A DNA stretch of 64,000 bases from Aequitasia blattaphilus (lineage in GTDB: Bacteria; Bacillota; Clostridia; Lachnospirales; Lachnospiraceae). Position 1 is the first letter of the stretch. The number at the start of each line of letters is the position of its first letter. The DNA lies in the NCBI RefSeq assembly GCF_024721305.1, contig NZ_JAMXOD010000013.1, forward strand, positions 1 to 64,000, written 5' to 3'. The translations under genes and the position numbers were made by a program. Below are positions 10,302 through 31,720 of this stretch, piece by piece. The notes beneath the pieces were generated by a model that made no database searches, had not been told where the DNA came from, and saw only the letters and a list, made by a program, of their open reading frames with translations.

Positions 10302-10861
10302 TGAGAGAGTCAAAGGTGTTAATAGAGATTGTAGAAGAAATAGCACGATATACACGTCAGATAGATGAATTAGAGATGCTCAAAATGGTTGAGTTGATTC
10401 AGAATGCCTCGAAAATTTTTGTTGTTGGAGCTGGCAGGTCGGGCTTTTGTGCAAGAGCATTTTCAAATCGTCTGATGCATTTAGGAAAGCAAACGTTTTT
10501 TGTGGGAGAACCAACTACTCCTTCAATTGGAGAGGGGGATTTGCTAATCATTGGTTCGGGCTCAGGAGAGACAGAGAGCCTTAAAGTTATGGCAGAAAAA
10601 GCTGCACGAATTGGAGCGGATGTAGCGACTGTTACAATTTTTCCGGAAGCAACAATTGGTAAATTAGCAAAAGCAGCAATCTGCATTCCAGGGGGTACGC
10701 CTAAGAGTGAACGAAAAGATTCTGTGAAATCAGTGCAACCAATGGGAAATTTATTTGAGCAGCTGAGCTGGATTGTGTATGATGGACTGATAAAGATGCT
10801 TATGAAAGAAGACAATATATTAGAAGATGAAATGTTTAAGAGACATGCAAATCTGGAATGA
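10298..10861 (+). CDS. 6-phospho-3-hexuloisomerase-like SIS protein (SIS3)
   Basis: 187 residues from ATG 10298, which overlaps the HPS stop as ATGA. ATG 10301 is equally well spaced from AAAGGA. It is the most canonical of the three SIS proteins: GAGRSG (44-49), RLMHLGKQTFFVGEPTTP, GSGSGET (86-92), PMGNLFEQ and a C-terminal RHANLE. PHI converts arabino-3-hexulose-6-phosphate to fructose-6-phosphate and is normally the partner of HPS, which is exactly the gene upstream. It is the last gene of the operon, followed by a strong hairpin. Confidence 0.88.
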   Translation: MMRESKVLIEIVEEIARYTRQIDELEMLKMVELIQNASKIFVVGAGRSGFCARAFSNRLMHLGKQTFFVGEPTTPSIGEGDLLIIGSGSGETESLKVMAEKAARIGADVATVTIFPEATIGKLAKAAICIPGGTPKSERKDSVKSVQPMGNLFEQLSWIVYDGLIKMLMKEDNILEDEMFKRHANLE

Positions 10862-10871
10862 TTTTATGGAC

Positions 10872-10898
10872 AAGAGCGGGCGATAATCGCCCGCTCTT
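10872..10898. terminator. Bidirectional terminator between sugar operon and regulator
   Basis: A perfect 12-bp GC-rich stem, AAGAGCGGGCGA/TCGCCCGCTCTT, with a TAA loop. It lies 10 bases after the SIS3 stop and 13 bases beyond the end of the convergent regulator gene, so it can serve both strands. Confidence 0.85.
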
Positions 10899-10910
10899 AG
10901 CTATCTTCAC

Positions 10911-13478
10911 CTACACAATATGATTTGAAAGAGCAATCGACACCGCATCCGCCCCATTTTTTGCCCCGAGCTTTAAATAAATATTACTCAGAAACTTTTG
11001 AACTCCACTGACGGAAATATTCAAGCTCAGTGCGATTTCCGCCCGGGATAAGCCTTGGGTAAGAAGTTTCAGAACCTGTTTTTCCCGGGGAGTCAGAGTG
11101 GTTTTTACAGGAGCCTTACTATTCTTTGTGTGAAAGAATGTTTTTTGAATCGATTCAAGATGGGATACAAATTCTCTTGTCTTATTCTCTAGAGATTTCA
11201 GCCATTCGTCATCATAATAAGGATCATTTTCTCTTCGTACCAGTTGGATAATCGGAAGTATATGTGTACCCAACTCCATAAACAAAAAAGATATATTGTG
11301 TTTGTAAACCATGTCATAGCTTTCTCTAAAAGCGGCAAGAGCCTTGTCTTTCCTGTCGAGATGCAGGTAGGAGATGGAATACAAAATATGGTTTCGTACT
11401 TTTAAGGGCCAAAGGCCACGTGTAGTTGTAACTTGATTTAACTCATCTACTAAGGTATGGAACTTAGGATAGTCTTTTTCATACAGAGCATAGAGAGCAC
11501 AGGCAATTATATTTCTGCCAATGGCATCTTGCTTGTCCCGATAGTGATTCAAATCCCCTTCTTTAATCCACTCTGGCACAGAATCAAAGTTTTCCAGATA
11601 AAATCCATAAATAGCTTGAAAGATATCGTTTAAATCATGAAGCATATGAGGTGTATACTGTTTGTAATATTTGTTCCCATTGCGATAGTAGGTCTTTAAA
11701 GAGCTATAGTTGCCTAAAGCAAATGCAATGCGTACTAGTATGTGATATGCATTTAAGACAATTCCATGCTGCCCTTCGATGGAGGCCTTAAACACTGCTT
11801 GTTTTGCGTAATAGGACGCCTTTTCATAGTCGCAGGTCATTAGCTGAGCTTCACTATGAAAAAGATAATCATAACCGGCTAATTGCTCTTTATTGATTTG
11901 TGAAATACAAAAAGTATAGTCGGAAATATAGTCCACCATATCCTGAATAGTAATATCTTCATCAGGTGGAAGAAAAAATCCCGAATTTTCCACAATAGAA
12001 TAAGTGTTGTGAACACTCATAATACTGCCGTCACTTAAAAGAGGGATGTGTTCTTTTAGGATTGAAAGATCAAAAAGCCTATTTTGAGCAATGGAAATAT
12101 TTGCAAGCATAACGTAGCTTTCTCCGATAATCCTTTTGTATTCAGGTTGTGTAGAATCCAAAGAATCAATGAGTGAATAAAAAGCAGACTTTGATAATTC
12201 CAAATCCCGGGCTTTAAAATGCAGCAAGGCAATAAAAAAATCAATCCAGGGATGAGTATCTCTGTATTCCTTTGGAATTTGCAATAGAAATTGCAGAAAG
12301 GCCTGTATGTAAGAAGATTCTACATTGTAGGGTGCCAGAAGAATCAAGTACTTTGAAAGCCCTTCATAATTTTTTGTCTGGATATAGAGGGTCATAATTG
12401 TTCGGATGTCCAGAGAGTCAAAAGGATAGCTGCTGGCGCTGCTTAGAGTGTGAATTTGTTCTCTTGACTCCAATGAGAAAAATGTTGAGATTAAAAAATC
12501 TCTATAAGGAATAAGGAAACGGAATTGTAAAATCTCATAGGAATATTCAATAAAAGGATTTTTTATAATAATTTCCAGGGTTTGCTCATAAAGCTCTTTT
12601 GACTCATCAATGGTTAAATCAGAAATCATTTTGTGGGAAAATGATTGAAACACAATGAGTTTTGTCAAAATTTCTTGTGTTTTTATAGAGTAATTTCCAA
12701 AATAGTACTTTTCAAAAAGCTTGTACACAGAAGAAATAAGATTTTCCATATTTTGAGAGGAGTCTGCTGCAATAATATGAAGCATTAGTGGCCATCCTTC
12801 GGTCTGCTGCAGAAGTCTTTGTGCCTCTTCTTCTTTAATATTTTTACCGTATATGCTGAAAAGACTTTGTATTTCCCGTATATTTAATGACAAATCTCTT
12901 GCAGTGATAATGAGGTTTTGATGCATTTGATTAACGGAAATATTAGAAGGTGCAATGGTAAGGTCTTTAATATTCTCATTTGCAATAATGATTTGATGAA
13001 TATTTAATGGAGCATATAGCAAATTTACTGTATGTAACTGGAAAAAGAAGTTTGATATTTTTGTGTTTGTAATCAGTTCATAATTGTCCGTAATGAGTAC
13101 AATCTTGCCATATTTTTCCTCAATAACCTTGTCTAATACCGTATCCATTACAAAAGCAGACATCTCATCGATTGTCTCGGGAAAAGTATGTCTTGAAATA
13201 ATGTCTGAAACCTCAGGGAGTTCTTTTTGTGCAGCAATACTTAAGGTTTTCCAAAAGAAGGCTGGGTTGTTATCCAGAACAGATAAGCTAATCCAGATAA
13301 TAGGCAGTTTCAGTTTTTTGACATACTCGGAAACCAGGGAAGTCTTACCGTAACCGGGTCCTGCAAGTATAGTAGTCATTGAATTATTCAAAGAATGAGA
13401 AAGCTTGTGACTGATGCGGGGTAATTTCACAAAACCAGTAGGCAAAGGCTGGTTTGGAAGATAGTCAGAACGATTCAT
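10911..13478 (-). CDS. MalT/LAL-type LuxR-family ATP-binding regulator next to the pilus locus
   Basis: 855 residues. The N-terminus has a Walker A (GPGYGKTS, 40-47) and a STAND-type ATPase region. The middle is helical and repeat-like, and the C-terminus (about 790-850) is a LuxR helix-turn-helix: LTPREKQVLKLLTQGLSRAEI, then SVSGVQKFLSNIYLKL. Proteins of this shape are large ligand- and ATP-dependent activators like MalT. The start is supported by GGAGGT on the minus strand. Divergent orientation to the pilin operon, and a repeated AAAAAGACAGT in the shared promoter region, suggest it activates the pilus genes and controls itself. Confidence 0.88.
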   Translation of the reverse strand: MNRSDYLPNQPLPTGFVKLPRISHKLSHSLNNSMTTILAGPGYGKTSLVSEYVKKLKLPIIWISLSVLDNNPAFFWKTLSIAAQKELPEVSDIISRHTFPETIDEMSAFVMDTVLDKVIEEKYGKIVLITDNYELITNTKISNFFFQLHTVNLLYAPLNIHQIIIANENIKDLTIAPSNISVNQMHQNLIITARDLSLNIREIQSLFSIYGKNIKEEEAQRLLQQTEGWPLMLHIIAADSSQNMENLISSVYKLFEKYYFGNYSIKTQEILTKLIVFQSFSHKMISDLTIDESKELYEQTLEIIIKNPFIEYSYEILQFRFLIPYRDFLISTFFSLESREQIHTLSSASSYPFDSLDIRTIMTLYIQTKNYEGLSKYLILLAPYNVESSYIQAFLQFLLQIPKEYRDTHPWIDFFIALLHFKARDLELSKSAFYSLIDSLDSTQPEYKRIIGESYVMLANISIAQNRLFDLSILKEHIPLLSDGSIMSVHNTYSIVENSGFFLPPDEDITIQDMVDYISDYTFCISQINKEQLAGYDYLFHSEAQLMTCDYEKASYYAKQAVFKASIEGQHGIVLNAYHILVRIAFALGNYSSLKTYYRNGNKYYKQYTPHMLHDLNDIFQAIYGFYLENFDSVPEWIKEGDLNHYRDKQDAIGRNIIACALYALYEKDYPKFHTLVDELNQVTTTRGLWPLKVRNHILYSISYLHLDRKDKALAAFRESYDMVYKHNISFLFMELGTHILPIIQLVRRENDPYYDDEWLKSLENKTREFVSHLESIQKTFFHTKNSKAPVKTTLTPREKQVLKLLTQGLSRAEIALSLNISVSGVQKFLSNIYLKLGAKNGADAVSIALSNHIV

Positions 13479-24977: not shown

Positions 24978-25703
24978 TTACAGTAAAGCGGCAGCTTCTG
25001 CATCTGCAATAATTGTCACATCAGGATGCAGTTGCAAAATAGAAGCAGGTACTTCCGGCGTGATGGGTCCATTTACTACTTGAGCCAAAATAGAAGCTTT
25101 GGCACTTCCGCTTACTAAAACTAAGATTTTTTTTGCAGATAAGATTCCCCTGTAGCCCATTGTATAAGCTTGTCTGGGTACTTCGTCAGAAGAATTAAAA
25201 TAACGTGTATTTGCATCAATCGTACTTTGAGTAAGCTCAACACAATGAGTATTCTTTTCGAAAACAGTGTTTGGTTCATTGAATCCAATGTGTCCATTGT
25301 GCCCCAAGCCAAGTAACTGTAAATCGATTCCACCAACACCATCGATGATTGCTTCGTAATCAGTGCATGCCTTCTCGCTATCAGGCTCAAGACCATCAGG
25401 GAGATAAGTGTTTTCTTTGACAATATCCACGTGGTCAAATAAATTTGTGTTCATAAAATAGCGATAGCTTTGTGGGTGAGTACCATCAAGACCCTTGTAT
25501 TCGTCCAGATTAACGGAGGTAATATCTTTAAAGCTAATGCTTCCGTCCTGGTAAGCTTTAATCAATCGTTGGTAAGTTCCAACAGGACTTCCTCCTGTGG
25601 CCAACCCCAATACACAATTCGGTTTCATGATGATTTGAGCGGCTATAAATTGTGCTCCTTTTTTACTGAGTTCTTCATAATCTGTAACTTTCTTGATTAC
25701 CAA
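24978..25703 (-). CDS. nagB: Glucosamine-6-phosphate deaminase
   Basis: 241 residues. NagB motifs are present: LGLATGGSPVGTYQRLI, SVNLDEYKGL, LLGLGHNGHIGFNEP and LTQSTIDANTRYF. It converts glucosamine-6-phosphate to fructose-6-phosphate and ammonia. The start is TTG 25703, with AAGGGAAGG about nine bases upstream; the nearby ATG is out of frame. It is convergent with the ROK sugar cluster, so it may be an independent amino-sugar gene. No nagA is seen in the window. Confidence 0.93.
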   Translation of the reverse strand: MVIKKVTDYEELSKKGAQFIAAQIIMKPNCVLGLATGGSPVGTYQRLIKAYQDGSISFKDITSVNLDEYKGLDGTHPQSYRYFMNTNLFDHVDIVKENTYLPDGLEPDSEKACTDYEAIIDGVGGIDLQLLGLGHNGHIGFNEPNTVFEKNTHCVELTQSTIDANTRYFNSSDEVPRQAYTMGYRGILSAKKILVLVSGSAKASILAQVVNGPITPEVPASILQLHPDVTIIADAEAAALL

Positions 25704-25783: not shown

Positions 25784-25812
25784 TTGAAGATGAAGAATTA
25801 GTGTGTTATTAT
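25784..25812 (+). promoter_or_regulatory. Promoter of the membrane-channel operon
   Basis: TTGAAG (25784-25789), a 17-base spacer and TATTAT (25807-25812) put transcription start near 25819, 26 bases before ATG 25845. This also argues against the GTG at 25803 as start codon. Confidence 0.6.
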
Positions 25813-25844
25813 TAGTAAATCGAGAGAGAAGAGGAGCGGGAAAA

Positions 25845-26933
25845 ATGCAGAAAGTAACCTTTCAAAAATGGCAGGTAAAAAAACTGGTAACCTGGTTTGT
25901 TTTAATACTAATTATCGGGGGGAGCTACCTGTGCTATTCAACCTGGCAGTTATATAATGATAAGGCTATGGAGAATACATATTGGAACAATGAATTAACA
26001 GATACGCCAGAAGAACAGGAACGTATTGAAAAGCTATCTGAAAATGCAACGAAAGTTAAAGTGGGAACATATGTAGAAAGCCTAAAAGAAATCAACATGA
26101 AAAGCAGCTATTTTAGGATTGTAGGTAAAGTATGGTTTAGTTGGGAAGGAGATCCCGACCTGGATATGGTTAATAACTTTCATGTTTATAATGGAACCAT
26201 GAATTCTAAAGTAGTGGAGAAAGATATTACAGAAGGAAATATGCACTATCAGTTATGCAAAATTGATGTCAGTGTCTTTAAGAATTTTTGGACAAAGCGA
26301 TTCCCTTTGGAATCACATCAACTAAGATTTTATATTGAGCCAAGCCAAGTTATTGATTATGTGGTGTTTGTGGAGGATGAAGGACATTCTACCGTAAATC
26401 CTTCTTTTAGTATTGCAGGATATAATCTGATTCGTTACGATCATGGAGTGCATACAAATGAATACAATACAACCTATGGAGAACCGGGAGTGGAAAAGGG
26501 AGCTATTACCTCAGAGTTTCTAACTCAAATTGAGCTGAACAGAGACAGTTTGGGGACATACACAAAATGCTTCATTGCCCTTTTTGGAACGGCCCTTTGG
26601 GTTTTTATTACTATGTTTTTGTGTACCTATCATCGGGTGGATCCCCTTAGTATGATACCAGCAGCGCTTTTTGGTGCAGTATCCAACATTATGGTGGGAG
26701 CGAATCTCCTGCCGGATGCATTGGAGATAGGACTTTTGGAGTACGTGAATGTATGGGGAATTTTGACCATATTAGGAGGTGCTTTAGTTGTCATCAATAT
26801 AAACCGCATACGAACAAGATACAATGATAACAAATTCGCAGCATTGTTTGGGAGAATTATCACCTTTGAGTTGGTGTTTATTGTCCTTTTAGGACATGTT
26901 CTTATGCCAATGGCTGCCTATATGTGGCAGTAA
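25845..26933 (+). CDS. Divergent pentameric ligand-gated ion channel-like membrane protein
   Basis: 362 residues. The order is an N-terminal membrane helix (13-33), an extracellular beta-rich domain (about 65-235) and four C-terminal helices (about 242-262, 268-289, 297-318, 334-358). VKVGTYVESLKEIN followed by VWFSWEGD matches the first strands of pLGIC ligand-binding domains. RFPLESHQLRFYIEP (152-166) matches the Cys-loop region of prokaryotic channels, remembered in GLIC as RYPFDSQTLHIYL. The pre-M1 strand TQIELNR and the M2-M3 segment ending in LLP align without gaps to GLIC as I recall it. The M1 proline is missing and M2 has Pro and Gly at unusual sites. It heads a four-gene membrane operon. 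Homology is inferred by eye; function is unproven. Confidence 0.6.
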   Translation: MQKVTFQKWQVKKLVTWFVLILIIGGSYLCYSTWQLYNDKAMENTYWNNELTDTPEEQERIEKLSENATKVKVGTYVESLKEINMKSSYFRIVGKVWFSWEGDPDLDMVNNFHVYNGTMNSKVVEKDITEGNMHYQLCKIDVSVFKNFWTKRFPLESHQLRFYIEPSQVIDYVVFVEDEGHSTVNPSFSIAGYNLIRYDHGVHTNEYNTTYGEPGVEKGAITSEFLTQIELNRDSLGTYTKCFIALFGTALWVFITMFLCTYHRVDPLSMIPAALFGAVSNIMVGANLLPDALEIGLLEYVNVWGILTILGGALVVININRIRTRYNDNKFAALFGRIITFELVFIVLLGHVLMPMAAYMWQ

Positions 26934-26955
26934 AAAAGAAGGGAGATTATGAAAA

Positions 26956-27678
26956 ATGAAAGAATACAAGTCAAATATCTTAACGGTTATTTGGGATGTT
27001 AAAAGTATCCTCTTGCTGGTGCTGTTAAGCTTGATTGATGTTGCAATGGTTTACTTTCTTGATAACCTTTCAGGGTTTCCGCTCTTTTTTGATTACTTTG
27101 GAGCGATGGCAGGAGCATGTATAGGAGGACCTATTTTAGGAGTACTTATTGCACTTTTAAGCACGATTATCCGTATAATATTTGGAATTAATGAAGTTAA
27201 TATTATATTTGTATTGGAAGCAATTGCATTAGCGGTCTTTGTAGGTGTTTATGTAAGACTGGGATTTTTTTACAAAAAGAGAGGTGTGATTATCGGAGCA
27301 GTTTTATGTGCTCTCATGGAAGCGTTTTTCATCACAGCAATGCATTTAGCGCTTTACGGTGCACAGCCACAGAATTATTCCCTCTATAAAAGTCTCTTTT
27401 TCATGATGAGACGAATCGGAATGTTAACACCCTTCGCAAGCTTGGTAGGTTTTTTTGTTACGAATGTATTGGACAAAGGAATTATTCTTTTCATCATATA
27501 TTTTCTAATTACAAAAATGCCAGATTCGATTGCGAAATTTTTCGAGATTTCAAAAGATTTTCCTCAGGCAGTTGTGGTAAATAACCAGGGAGAAGAGGAT
27601 TTCCTGGCTGAAAGTGAAAAGCTAAAGGCAAAGGCGCAGGAAAAGATTGATAAACGAAGGGAAAAAGAGGAATCATGA
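26956..27678 (+). CDS. Six-TM membrane protein resembling ECF transporter S components
   Basis: 240 residues with about six membrane helices and a charged C-terminal tail (LKAKAQEKIDKRREKEES) that is probably cytoplasmic and helical. The segment LFFDYFGAMAGACIGGPILG, then VLIALLSTIIRIIFG, follows the D-x-x-G-(A/T) ... GP-x-x-G pattern of ECF S components and related sensor membrane domains. No ECF ATPase or T component is in the window. It lies between the channel-like gene and the potassium channel gene, overlapping the latter by four bases, so the three are translationally coupled. It may be a small-molecule binder or transporter; the substrate is unknown. Confidence 0.55.
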   Translation: MKEYKSNILTVIWDVKSILLLVLLSLIDVAMVYFLDNLSGFPLFFDYFGAMAGACIGGPILGVLIALLSTIIRIIFGINEVNIIFVLEAIALAVFVGVYVRLGFFYKKRGVIIGAVLCALMEAFFITAMHLALYGAQPQNYSLYKSLFFMMRRIGMLTPFASLVGFFVTNVLDKGIILFIIYFLITKMPDSIAKFFEISKDFPQAVVVNNQGEEDFLAESEKLKAKAQEKIDKRREKEES

Positions 27679-28400
27679 GAAAAAAGCTATATTCGCTAGT
27701 TGAAAAAGCAGAAAAAAACAATTCGATTAGTTTCTTTTATGATTGGCTGATTATGGGAGCGTCGATACTCAGTATTCTTCCTATGATGTTTCGGGATGTC
27801 CCTCAAGAGGTGACGGAGTGGATTGAGACACCGACGGTCTACCTTTTGTTTTTCGACTATATGCTGCGTTGGTTTACCCATGATTACAGACGAAAGAGCA
27901 CGAGTAAGTGGTCTTTTGTTTTGTATCCATTTACACCTCTTGCAATTATGGATTTAATGGGAATATTACCTTCTCTGGGGCTTCTTCATGGAAGCTTTAA
28001 AGCATTTCGCTTATTTAGACTGGGTAAACTAATTCGTTATTCAAAGAGCTGTCAAAGAATTGGAAATGTTTTCAAAAATCAAAAGAAAACCTTATTATCT
28101 GTTTTAAGTATTGCAATTGCATATATTTTCATCTCGGCTCTTATTATGTTTGTGTCGGAACCACCGGAGAATTTTCCCAACTTCTTTGATGCCCTTTACT
28201 GGGCTACAACGGCATTGACAACAGTAGGATATGGAGATATCTATCCAAGCACTCAGCTGGGTAAGGTGATTAGTATGATTTCCTCTATCTTTGGTGTGGC
28301 GGTCATTGCAATGCCGGCAGGTATTGTGACAGCTGGATTTTTGGAGGAGCTTAATAAAGATTTTCATGAAGGGGAAGAAAAACATGACGAAGAATCCTAA
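27675..28400 (+). CDS. Voltage-gated-type potassium channel (six TM)
   Basis: 241 residues. The selectivity filter is TVGYGD at 183-188, in ATTALTTVGYGDIYPS. An S4-like helix at 108-123 (FKAFRLFRLGKLIRYS) carries basic residues at every third or fourth position, and four helices precede the pore. This is the Ion_trans/Kv architecture of short prokaryotic channels. The acidic, histidine-containing C-terminal tail (HEGEEKHDEES) is short, with no RCK or cyclic-nucleotide domain. ATGA overlap with the previous gene and overlap with the next indicate tight co-expression with the other three membrane proteins. Confidence 0.9.
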   Translation: MRKKLYSLVEKAEKNNSISFFYDWLIMGASILSILPMMFRDVPQEVTEWIETPTVYLLFFDYMLRWFTHDYRRKSTSKWSFVLYPFTPLAIMDLMGILPSLGLLHGSFKAFRLFRLGKLIRYSKSCQRIGNVFKNQKKTLLSVLSIAIAYIFISALIMFVSEPPENFPNFFDALYWATTALTTVGYGDIYPSTQLGKVISMISSIFGVAVIAMPAGIVTAGFLEELNKDFHEGEEKHDEES

Positions 28401-28926
28401 AACAAAACGATATGCTCTCATCATGGGAATCGGGATTATTATGAATTTGGGTTTTTATGCTTTGGCACATTTTTTCCATTTACCTATGTGGCTGGATTCA
28501 ATTGGAACAGCCTATGCGGCTGTTGCGTTAGAGCCAGTAGCCGGTCTTCTCATTGCCTTTGTAACGAACTTTATTCAATCGGCATTTATTTACGGAACCA
28601 GTTCGATTGTCTACTATTTTGTAGGTGCGTTAGCAGCCCTGTGCTTTGGTCTTCAATCGAAGAAGCTGGGAAGGGCAATGGTGTCCTATTTTTTTCTTGC
28701 TACCTTATTGGCGGGTTTATTAACCGTATGGAGAACGAAGGGAATTCCGGATAGTGCATGGGAACGCTATTTTTATGACTTGGCGGTGGGAAGAGGCTTC
28801 CATCCTTATGTGGCATGTTTTTTTGGAACGGGAGTGCTAAAGTTTGGAGATACCATTGTAATGGGAGTTTTGGTTCCGATTTTTGCGGGTTTATCGAAAA
28901 GGGGTAAGTTGACTCTTTCGGAATAA
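28384..28926 (+). CDS. Small membrane protein resembling ECF S components, paralogue of 26956
   Basis: 180 residues from ATG 28384, which has GGGGAAG seven bases before it and overlaps the potassium channel gene by 17 bases. About five membrane helices. MWLDSIGTAYAAVALEPVAG, then LLIAFVTNFIQSAFIYG, repeats the pattern seen in the protein at 26956, so the two look related. Known relatives of such segments bind vitamins or other small molecules within the membrane. The lack of transport ATPases nearby leaves a sensing role open. Confidence 0.55.
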   Translation: MTKNPKTKRYALIMGIGIIMNLGFYALAHFFHLPMWLDSIGTAYAAVALEPVAGLLIAFVTNFIQSAFIYGTSSIVYYFVGALAALCFGLQSKKLGRAMVSYFFLATLLAGLLTVWRTKGIPDSAWERYFYDLAVGRGFHPYVACFFGTGVLKFGDTIVMGVLVPIFAGLSKRGKLTLSE

Positions 28927-29997: not shown

Positions 29998-30049
29998 AAG
30001 AGACCCACCATTAGCTATAGCGGGTCTCTTGTAAATAGAATTTTTTTTG
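29998..30049. terminator. Bidirectional terminator after asnA
   Basis: AAGAGACCC (29998-30006) pairs with GGGTCTCTT (30022-30030), and TTTTTTTT follows at about 30041. The convergent DUF975-type gene ends inside the loop. Confidence 0.75.
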
Positions 30050-31615
30050 TGGCTGCGACTGGTAATCCGTAATTCCCTTCCCGGTATTCGGGTGGGAACG
30101 AGAGTAAACAGAGTCTAAGCAAAACAAACAGACCAGAATGAGAGCGATCGAAATCAGAACTTTTCTTGGCAGCTTACTAATCAAGTTATCAATAATCGGT
30201 GCGGCAATATAAATAATAGCATAGCAGCCTAGCCCAAATACCAATAATCCTTCCAGGCAGACACGGCCGTTAAGGTTTAGCAAATACCCGGAATAATCCC
30301 ACCATTTCATATGATGAACTCTTTCCAAAAAGTAGGAGGTACTGTACTCAATGATTCCACAGAGAGCAGTGGCAAGGAAAAAGGTTAAAATATGCCGGTT
30401 TCGGAAAGGCTTTAGCAAAAACAATACAAGAACGGTACCAGAGCCGTAAATGGGAAGCCAAGGTCCGAACATGGTTCCGCGGTTAACAAAGGTACCATCC
30501 TGAAGGAGATGGAGGCTTACCTCCCAGCACCAGCCAACCATGGAAAAAATGAAAAAGATTAGAATCAAATGCAAGAGAGTATAGTTGCGATTAAAGTCAA
30601 TCTCCAGCCATTTTCTTGCAGGTGCAGAGGGGATTTCAAACCCATCCGCTGGATAAGTATCATCTTGAGCGATAGGGATATCCAAATAAACATCTTTCAA
30701 AAGATATGAAAATGCGCCATTGTTATCGATATAATTTCTCCGAAGCGCCATATAGACTTCACTTTCTGTAGCCAGACGATAAGGATTTAGATAAAAGATT
30801 CCTAAAAGACCAAAGGTCAGTACATTCAGTATATTCCACCCCAGAAAAGAAAACTGGAGAATAAAAAGTTTCCATTTGTATCCCTTCATCATTTGACGGG
30901 ATATTTTAATTGCGGTCTTTCCGTTGATATCAGGATTCTCTGCAAGGATAAAAGGAACCATATAGTAGGAGTAGAATTTAATAACGCCCCCAATTACGGT
31001 GAACATCCAAAGCATAAGGTAAACTGTATGGCGAAGCATGGAAAGTCCAACCTTTATCACTCTTTTTACGTGATACATAAGAAAGACACGTTCTGTGTTT
31101 GTATCATGGTATCGTCTGCTTTCTAAGGCGAATCTTCTTCCCCCTACGGATAAGACTTGTCCCACAAAAAGAAACCACATCAGCTGTAAAAGAGTAGAGA
31201 TTAATATGACAATACCTTCTCCAATACGGGAGCTAAACACCATATGGTTGACTGTGTTAAGTACGCCTGTTGTCAGATTTCCGGTGGCTGATACACCGTT
31301 GAAGAACTGTGCAAGAACCCCTCGTGTAGGGTGATAACTTGCAAATTTTTTCACGGTATCATCCTTGGTCTTTTCCAATGTGCCGACGCCCTCCGCAAAA
31401 TCAGCTATAACTCCAGAAGAGTTATTTAAGGGAAGACGGTTGATTTCGTCCTCAGCATCTGTGGTGGTAGTTACAGTATCGGTTAAGGAATAGTAAGTTC
31501 CAACAAATTCTCCGGAAATAAATAGAAGAATTAAACAGATAACTACGTAACGGCGATAATTTTTTTTGAAGCTGATTTTTCCCTGAGATTTTAAATTTTT
31601 TCGATTCCAATTCAT
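30011..31615 (-). CDS. DUF975-like and CmpB-like fused integral membrane protein
   Basis: 534 residues from ATG 31615, which has AGGGG upstream. The longer frame adds 29 residues over the likely promoter region. The N-terminal two thirds match the DUF975 pattern: FYSYYMVPFILAENPDINGK, SRQMMKGYKWKLFILQFSFL and LGIFYLNPYRLATESEVY. From about residue 350 a second membrane block (FSMVGWCWEVSLHLLQDGTF, NRGTMFGPWLPIYGSGTVLV, KWWDYSGYLLNLNGRVCLEG) matches the CmpB-like putative ABC permease family. Both families are of unknown function, and I normally think of them as separate proteins. It is divergent from the T-box operon. Confidence 0.75.
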   Translation of the reverse strand: MNWNRKNLKSQGKISFKKNYRRYVVICLILLFISGEFVGTYYSLTDTVTTTTDAEDEINRLPLNNSSGVIADFAEGVGTLEKTKDDTVKKFASYHPTRGVLAQFFNGVSATGNLTTGVLNTVNHMVFSSRIGEGIVILISTLLQLMWFLFVGQVLSVGGRRFALESRRYHDTNTERVFLMYHVKRVIKVGLSMLRHTVYLMLWMFTVIGGVIKFYSYYMVPFILAENPDINGKTAIKISRQMMKGYKWKLFILQFSFLGWNILNVLTFGLLGIFYLNPYRLATESEVYMALRRNYIDNNGAFSYLLKDVYLDIPIAQDDTYPADGFEIPSAPARKWLEIDFNRNYTLLHLILIFFIFSMVGWCWEVSLHLLQDGTFVNRGTMFGPWLPIYGSGTVLVLFLLKPFRNRHILTFFLATALCGIIEYSTSYFLERVHHMKWWDYSGYLLNLNGRVCLEGLLVFGLGCYAIIYIAAPIIDNLISKLPRKVLISIALILVCLFCLDSVYSRSHPNTGKGITDYQSQPQKKFYLQETRYS

Positions 31616-31691
31616 AGTATTTCCCCTTGTTTTTCCCTTTTTGATAACTAAAAAAACTATAGCATTGAACAATTTTTCTGTCAAATTATAC

Positions 31692-31720
31692 TTGCATCTC
31701 AAAAAAACATGTGATAAGAT
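31692..31720 (+). promoter_or_regulatory. Promoter of the T-box operon
   Basis: TTGCAT (31692-31697), 17 bases and TAAGAT (31715-31720) place the start near 31727, just ahead of the T-box leader. Confidence 0.55.

Follow-up and report, generated by a model that had tools for sequence, protein, structure and literature searches.

We analysed a 64,000-nucleotide (nt) stretch of Aequitasia blattaphilus DNA (contig NZ_JAMXOD010000013.1, positions 1 to 64,000), here called the window. Its assembly (GCF_024721305.1, 3.2 Mb) is genome G000 in our numbering, and five named relatives are titled uncultured Clostridia. Between positions 25845 and 28926 the window holds four tightly packed genes on one strand, encoding membrane proteins P1 to P4: a predicted pentameric ligand-gated ion channel (pLGIC) subunit, two related proteins resembling the S-components of energy-coupling factor (ECF) importers and, between these two, a K+ channel (Table 1). 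Genes 1 and 2 are separated by a gap of 22 nt, genes 2 and 3 overlap by 4 nt, and genes 3 and 4 by 17 nt. An earlier interpretation made from the DNA letters, which we refer to as the sequence-only reading, had described an operon consisting of membrane proteins without any ABC ATPase. That the four are membrane proteins and include no ABC ATPase is confirmed, and the kinds of protein that it proposed, namely one pLGIC-like, one Kv-type and two related S-component-like products, are borne out by the results below.

Table 1. Coordinates of the gene row and of features within it (window positions).
Feature	Position	Strand	Description
Promoter-like site, TTGAAG-17-TATTAT, TG before second hexamer	25784..25812	+	Consensus match only; 32 nt 5' of gene 1 ATG
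Gene 1 (P1, 362 amino acids)	25845..26933	+	Predicted GLIC-like pentameric ligand-gated channel subunit; the N-terminus carries an additional, conserved hydrophobic segment
P1 pro-loop signature ([F/Y]PxD), here FPLE, residues 153-156	26301..26312	+	Proline in 16/16 rows
P1 M2 region, residues 266-290 (D266 ... L275 ... P290)	26640..26714	+	From alignment
Gene 2 (P2, 240 amino acids)	26956..27678	+	Diverged S-component-like protein with charged C-terminal tail; accessory, in 7/25 loci
Gene 3 (P3, 241 amino acids)	27675..28400	+	Predicted six-helix voltage-type K+ channel
P3 S4 basic ladder, R112, R115, K118, R121	28008..28037	+	From alignment
P3 selectivity filter TTVGYGD, residues 182-188	28218..28238	+	VGYGD in 19/19 aligned rows
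Gene 4 (P4, 180 amino acids)	28384..28926	+	Predicted S-component-fold membrane domain; probably forms the core together with the K+ channel; the two are one protein in L009 and L114

Gene 3 is predicted to encode a six-helix K+ channel of the voltage type. Pfam assigns P3 to Ion_trans (E value 2.2e-25), and Kv2.1, Kv1, KCNQ and other K+ channels are among the best 60 of its 242 matches to Protein Data Bank (PDB) sequences. P3 shares with these voltage-gated channels the six-helix subunit, the S4 ladder and the VGYGD filter; it differs from them in that no RCK or cyclic-nucleotide domain was matched and in that its putative regulatory partner would be embedded in the membrane.

That putative partner is P4. 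Both P4 (36 bits, 5.2e-9) and P2 (42.1 bits, 6.8e-11) match the NCBIfam ECF S-component model CD3073, whose cutoff is 180 bits, and P4 homologues match it in all 13 rows given. With Pfam E values up to 0.1, these homologues match ECF_trnsprt (6/13), GtrA_DPMS_TM (5/13) and the riboflavin S-component family (3/13), and a P4 profile finds a single PDB sequence, RibU (0.012). The structural model predicted for P4 is good (predicted local distance difference test, pLDDT, 87.0), and its 13 best PDB matches are S-components or chains of ECF-type entries (E values 0.04-0.35, probability 0.91-1.00), including 4huq_S and 6zg3_C, which the listing does not name as S-components; past rank 13, the remainder of the best 50 have a probability of 0.25 or less. 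On the evidence of this model, P4 is predicted to have the S-component fold. P2 is a distant paralogue of P4, as judged from sequence by profile search and by its own CD3073 match. In a 46-row tree, from which the near-copies L003 P4, L003 P2 and L066 were left out, the six P2 rows form one clade (support 100/100) and 21 P4 rows another (91/88, just under the program's mark for strong support). An acidic residue of P4, E50, lies in an L/I-E-P motif and is present in 22/22 P4 rows from cassettes, in 0/7 P2 rows, in 0/7 rows from signalling proteins and in 0/13 rows from solo genes; the P4 rows of L081, L082 and L114 are in neither the tree nor the alignment used for such counts. Neither P2 nor P4 matches PF07694 (5TMR-LYT); a distant P4 relative, in L048, matches it at 9.5e-6.

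P3 and P4 occur as one protein in two species of the window's genus, at L009 (424 amino acids) and L114 (433 amino acids). The L009 fusion is one open frame, its length counted from the channel's ATG, and between S6 and the first P4 helix this frame offers only TTG, with no ATG or GTG. Because P4 lies in the +1 frame relative to the channel in all ten unfused loci checked, the window included, fusion needed a frame change. The L114 fusion emerged from a K+-channel search of 15 chosen genomes, 14 of which matched (G1095 did not; G533, G556 and G259 each gave an additional, weaker match); it is a single gene in genome G299, and neither P1 nor P2 was found on the 14 kb examined. The presence of fusions in two separate assemblies makes a base-calling artefact unlikely. 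In these proteins P4 follows directly after S6, across a linker of about 25 residues, an arrangement that suggests an unusual ligand-controlled ion channel.

The pairing extends well beyond the fusions. We assembled 25 separate loci that carry a close homologue of P4 (the window, L001-L005, L009, L010, L024-L028, L030, L077-L086 and L114; L029 and L004, being one contig, count as a single locus). These were gathered by searches with P1, P4 and the K+ channel and include several near relatives, so the fractions are descriptive and not unbiased rates. In 24 of the 25, P4 has the K+ channel immediately upstream, although in L028 the channel is split over two frames; only L081, where P4 is truncated, departs from this. 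P1 is full length or nearly so in 16 (the window, L001-L003, L009, L010, L024-L028 and L082-L086, the first start codon in L086 omitting about 29 profile positions), is broken or a remnant in four (L004, L005, L030 and L077) and was not found in five (L078-L081 and L114). P2 is present in the window, L001-L005 and L009, with a remnant in L030. Because P3 and P4 stay together in eight of the nine loci in which P1 is broken or was not found, we take them to be the functional core; the best reading is that the pLGIC is a frequent but dispensable partner. The sequence-only reading had treated the four genes as one unit. Neither outcome that it named as refuting came about: the genes are neighbours in related genomes, and the weak predicted fold of P1, backed by sequence profiles, matches pLGICs. 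An obligate unit of four is not supported, since only P3 and P4 are near constant, and that interpretation is overall partly supported; the electrical or osmotic signalling role that it suggested for the set may hold.

The S-component fold raises the alternative of conventional importers: P4 and P2 would be ordinary group II ECF S-components relying on an ECF module from another part of the genome, and the channels would be co-regulated neighbours that might, for example, balance charge or osmolarity during uptake. The fold itself and the CD3073-type matches would fit such importers, as would two EcfT/CbiQ-family (PF02361) genes in the host genome and a related solo gene that adjoins EcfT and a phosphorylase-superfamily gene. 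The AXXXA motif, however, is found at the aligned helix-1 position in only 1/22 cassette P4 rows, and in 0/7 P2, 0/7 signalling and 6/13 solo rows; the window P4 has G15 and I19 in place of the alanines. According to the excerpted text of Partipilo and Slotboom (2024; PMC11109136), S-components and 5TMR receptors have a common fold, which occurs in importers as well as in receptors whose outputs are soluble, and this docking motif is missing from the S-fold receptors. The two fusions and the upstream K+ channel also count against ordinary importers, as does the lack of a common metabolic neighbour across the 16 loci inspected. We consider the importer explanation unlikely, and P4 to be probably a small-molecule receptor.

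The wider relatives of P4 bear on this question. Weaker matches to the P4 profile fall into three groups: solo genes, domains at the N-terminus of HD-domain proteins or of a histidine kinase, and N-terminal domains of propeller proteins. That P4-type domains form the N-terminal modules of HD-domain, HisKA/HATPase and propeller proteins supports a receptor role. The HD-domain (HD-GYP-like) proteins with such a membrane module are those of L057 and L058 (Pfam-confirmed) and L060 and L061 (by eye), with no PF07694 match in L057 and L058, the two checked; the one histidine kinase is at L064. Among the solo genes, those of L049 (Pfam-confirmed) and L052 (by eye) lie beside EcfT and a phosphorylase-superfamily gene, and that of L065 adjoins a nucleoside hydrolase; because of these neighbours, a nucleoside- or base-like ligand for P4 is weakly hinted at. 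Two further observations concern these relatives. The solo S-component-like genes of L051 and L054 adjoin genes that we take to be DUF523-like, which might point to a base or thio-base as the substrate. The propeller (Reg_prop) proteins that carry an S-component-like domain at the N-terminus, in L048 and L063, are long, and the P4-profile matches listed for the window's family include ten open frames of about 1180-1630 amino acids, the other domains of which were checked in L048 only.

P1 belongs to no Pfam or NCBIfam family at significant score, and neither its single sequence nor a 5-row profile found anything among PDB sequences. A 10-row profile gave six matches at E values up to 10, comprising four to GLIC or GLIC chimeras (0.0022-0.021), one to a GABA receptor (0.076) and one to an unrelated acetyltransferase (0.41). 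With 16 rows (L003, L004, L005, L030, L077 and L082 excluded) there were 71, the best a GLIC variant at 1.5e-5; the best 60 of these 71 all bear the names proton-gated ion channel, Glr4197 or ligand-gated ion channel, and we regard them as GLIC together with its variants and chimeras. Entries 3eam and 6zgk have a sequence that scores 2.9e-4, and the best alignment with GLIC spans the extracellular domain into M2. Pfam over ten P1 rows returned weak matches only (Neur_chan_LBD in one row, 0.07; Lig_chan in one row, 0.017; and unrelated families). A search of 149 genomes of the phylum with PF02932 likewise gave three weak matches, none above the cutoff; of these candidates, L034 and L036 are on inspection unlike channels, and none of the three was used.

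Conserved residues point in the same direction as the profiles. Alongside the pro-loop proline (P154), F153 is invariant, and the position two past the proline is acidic in 12/16 rows (E 11, D 1; G 2 and S 2 in the others). R233, which aligns with the GLIC arginine ahead of M1, and P290 of the M2-M3 loop are each present in 16/16 rows. The kink proline of M1 is missing, with L246 aligning there by our reading. In the excerpts of the pLGIC residue table of Jaiteh et al. (PMC4795631), the pro-loop proline is listed at 100%, the acidic residue two after it at 93% D and 3% E, the pre-M1 arginine at 94% and the M2-M3 proline at 88%; the M1 kink proline, at 77%, is typical and not universal. An AlphaFold2 model of P1 made from seven rows is weak (pLDDT 56.1, predicted template modelling score 0.44). 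The best 50 of its 1692 Foldseek matches are all pLGICs, with GLIC first (E value 6.0e-11, probability 1.00), although query template modelling scores of 0.26-0.35 mean that the model's overall arrangement is unreliable. From the profiles, backed by this predicted fold, P1 appears to be a diverged, GLIC-like pentameric ligand-gated channel, for which a pentamer and a ligand-gated current are predicted. It would share with GLIC and the prokaryotic pro-loop receptors an extracellular beta domain, four C-terminal helices, an FPxE/D pro-loop (acidic residue in 12/16 rows), the pre-M1 arginine and the M2-M3 proline; it differs from them in its lack of a significant Pfam match, in the M1 proline and in an extra N-terminal hydrophobic segment. 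This segment is found in 16/16 rows, and conservation of the surrounding residues suggests that it is an uncleaved helix. By the profile alignment, D266 presumably sits at GLIC M2 0' and L275 at 9'. We claim no ion selectivity from D266, because a shift of two residues would put R264 at that M2 position; where D266 aligns by our reading, 79% of pLGICs carry R or K in the excerpted table (PMC4795631).

Two further observations concern gene 1 homologues. At L087:1981-3099 (+) there is a diverged second homologue, 28% identical to the window P1, without a K+ channel pair and without the acidic residue at the base of M2. In L010, an aquaporin-family gene (MIP in Pfam; 10674-11378, minus strand) lies 16 nt upstream of the gene 1 homologue on the same strand, a single case.

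The presence of a pLGIC beside a voltage-type channel suggests another explanation, a minimal bacterial excitability unit in which the pLGIC would depolarise the cell on a ligand or pH signal, the K+ channel would repolarise it and the S-domain would tune the response. The S4 ladder and VGYGD filter are what such a unit would contain, and P1 of full or nearly full length accompanies P3-P4 in 16/25 loci from at least five labelled families, a rate biased by the partial use of P1 as bait. Moreover, within the window's family P1 (searched in 299 genomes) and a close P4 (in 329) occur in one and the same set of three genomes. Against this explanation, P1 is lost or broken in nine of the 25 loci while the P3-P4 pair stays in eight of them, and the charge selectivity of P1 is uncertain. 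We hold it to be rather unlikely.

The family counts belong to a wider survey. P1 was found in 3/299 genomes of the window's family (2/3 of its genus), in 8/40 of another family, in 12/391 of the class, of which eight were accepted, and in 1/398 sampled across the phylum, the window's own. Short, weak matches in G517, G538, G598 and G640 and the second match in G557 were dropped; the G598 match (L032) recurred in an iterative search, in which self-inclusion inflates its score. The P4 profile gave strong matches (below 1e-60) in 3/329 genomes of the family, G299, where a fusion was found later, not being among the listed family matches; in the class it matched 36/245 genomes, ten of them strongly (below 1e-30). 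This patchy distribution, with frequent decay of P1, would also be expected of drifting genes that are held together by shared transcription and have no joint function. That explanation is very improbable, since the same order recurs in many genomes with different flanks, motifs are conserved and two fusions occurred. Among the 16 of the 25 loci inspected, the flanks differ, near relatives apart; no flanking gene is common to them, and no conserved one points to an osmotic function (L028 has a flanking gene, a single case, that we read as glycerol kinase). The arrangement exceeds chance, as the order of the genes is repeated in other genomes whose flanks differ, near relatives apart.

We favour, with a probability of roughly 60%, the interpretation that P3 and P4 form a K+ channel whose activity a small molecule controls by binding to an S-type receptor. 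P4 would lie alongside the channel and have a cytosolic N-terminus adjacent to the end of S6, which is the gate helix. A small molecule from outside the cell would, on binding, tilt P4 and so push or pull S6, an action that would add to whatever voltage sensing S1-S4 gives. Because the fusions place P4 directly after S6 on a linker, movement of P4 could act on the gate. P1, encoded in the same operon, would supply a second ion current of the GLIC type, triggered by ligand or protons and countered by the K+ current, and P2, as a diverged S-type subunit, may add or swap ligand specificity.

Several observations weigh against this interpretation. AXXXA is not a sharp criterion, since the motif is also missing from the two solo rows beside EcfT-type genes (L049 and L052). 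With the host genome's two EcfT/CbiQ-family genes in addition, both outside the operon, an importer role for P4 or P2 is still conceivable. Overlapping genes may be translationally coupled without their products forming a complex. An in-frame Met codon lies in the L114 linker and could serve as the internal start of a separate P4. The S4 of L114 also carries fewer charges, so voltage gating may not be general. Finally, P1 occurs without the P3-P4 pair at two loci, L087 and L088.

Somewhat more tentatively than the channel-receptor pairing itself, the gene set may represent a class of ligand-gated K+ channels whose gate is under the control of an S-component domain that derives from transporters, lies in the membrane and acts as the receptor; a GLIC-type pentameric channel would usually be encoded in the same operon, and the two would provide the ion-admitting and K+-releasing arms of a bacterial electrical response to a small molecule. 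With the same reserve, this class may be previously undescribed: we found no description of the operon or of a channel-S-domain fusion in open-licence PMC papers, as judged by title and the start of the abstract. If the proposal is true, the output of an S-component fold would be an ion channel, and the one-protein version (L009, L114) makes it directly testable how an S-domain signals without ATP. To our knowledge, the roles of pLGICs in bacteria are largely unknown, and the gene set gives a group of them a concrete partner and a way to ask what they do. The excerpts of Tasneem et al. (2004; PMC549065) name PBP-II, Cache and a Na+/H+ symporter as operon neighbours of pLGICs, whereas the partners here are others. 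P4 resembles the S-fold receptors (5TMR-LYT histidine kinases) and ECF S-components, as they appear in the excerpts of PMC11109136, in fold, and the receptors also in likely membrane receptor use and loss of AXXXA. It differs in that its partner is a K+ channel; that paper describes an NRAMP fusion as the sole case of assembly with an integral membrane transporter, and a look for the word "channel" in its text found nothing.

The immediate surroundings of the gene row add a few details. A nagB-like gene (Glucosamine_iso) lies on the opposite strand at 24978-25703. On the other side, the likely ATG of an asnA-like gene (AsnA in Pfam) is 43 bases past the last stop of the row, so that read-through from the operon into asnA is possible. 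P1 has an alternative longer frame from a GTG at 25803; GAGGAG at 25831-25836 precedes the ATG at 25845. The single promoter that the sequence-only reading placed ahead of the four genes comes down to a consensus match: our scan gave 23 sites against 15.9 (standard deviation 4.1) in shuffles, an excess that is not clear, and the promoter and terminator scans of the window were uninformative. No Rfam family was matched within the window. Further along, at 30011-31702 on the minus strand, an open reading frame of 563 amino acids joins DUF975-type and ABC_trans_CmpB-type membrane domains.

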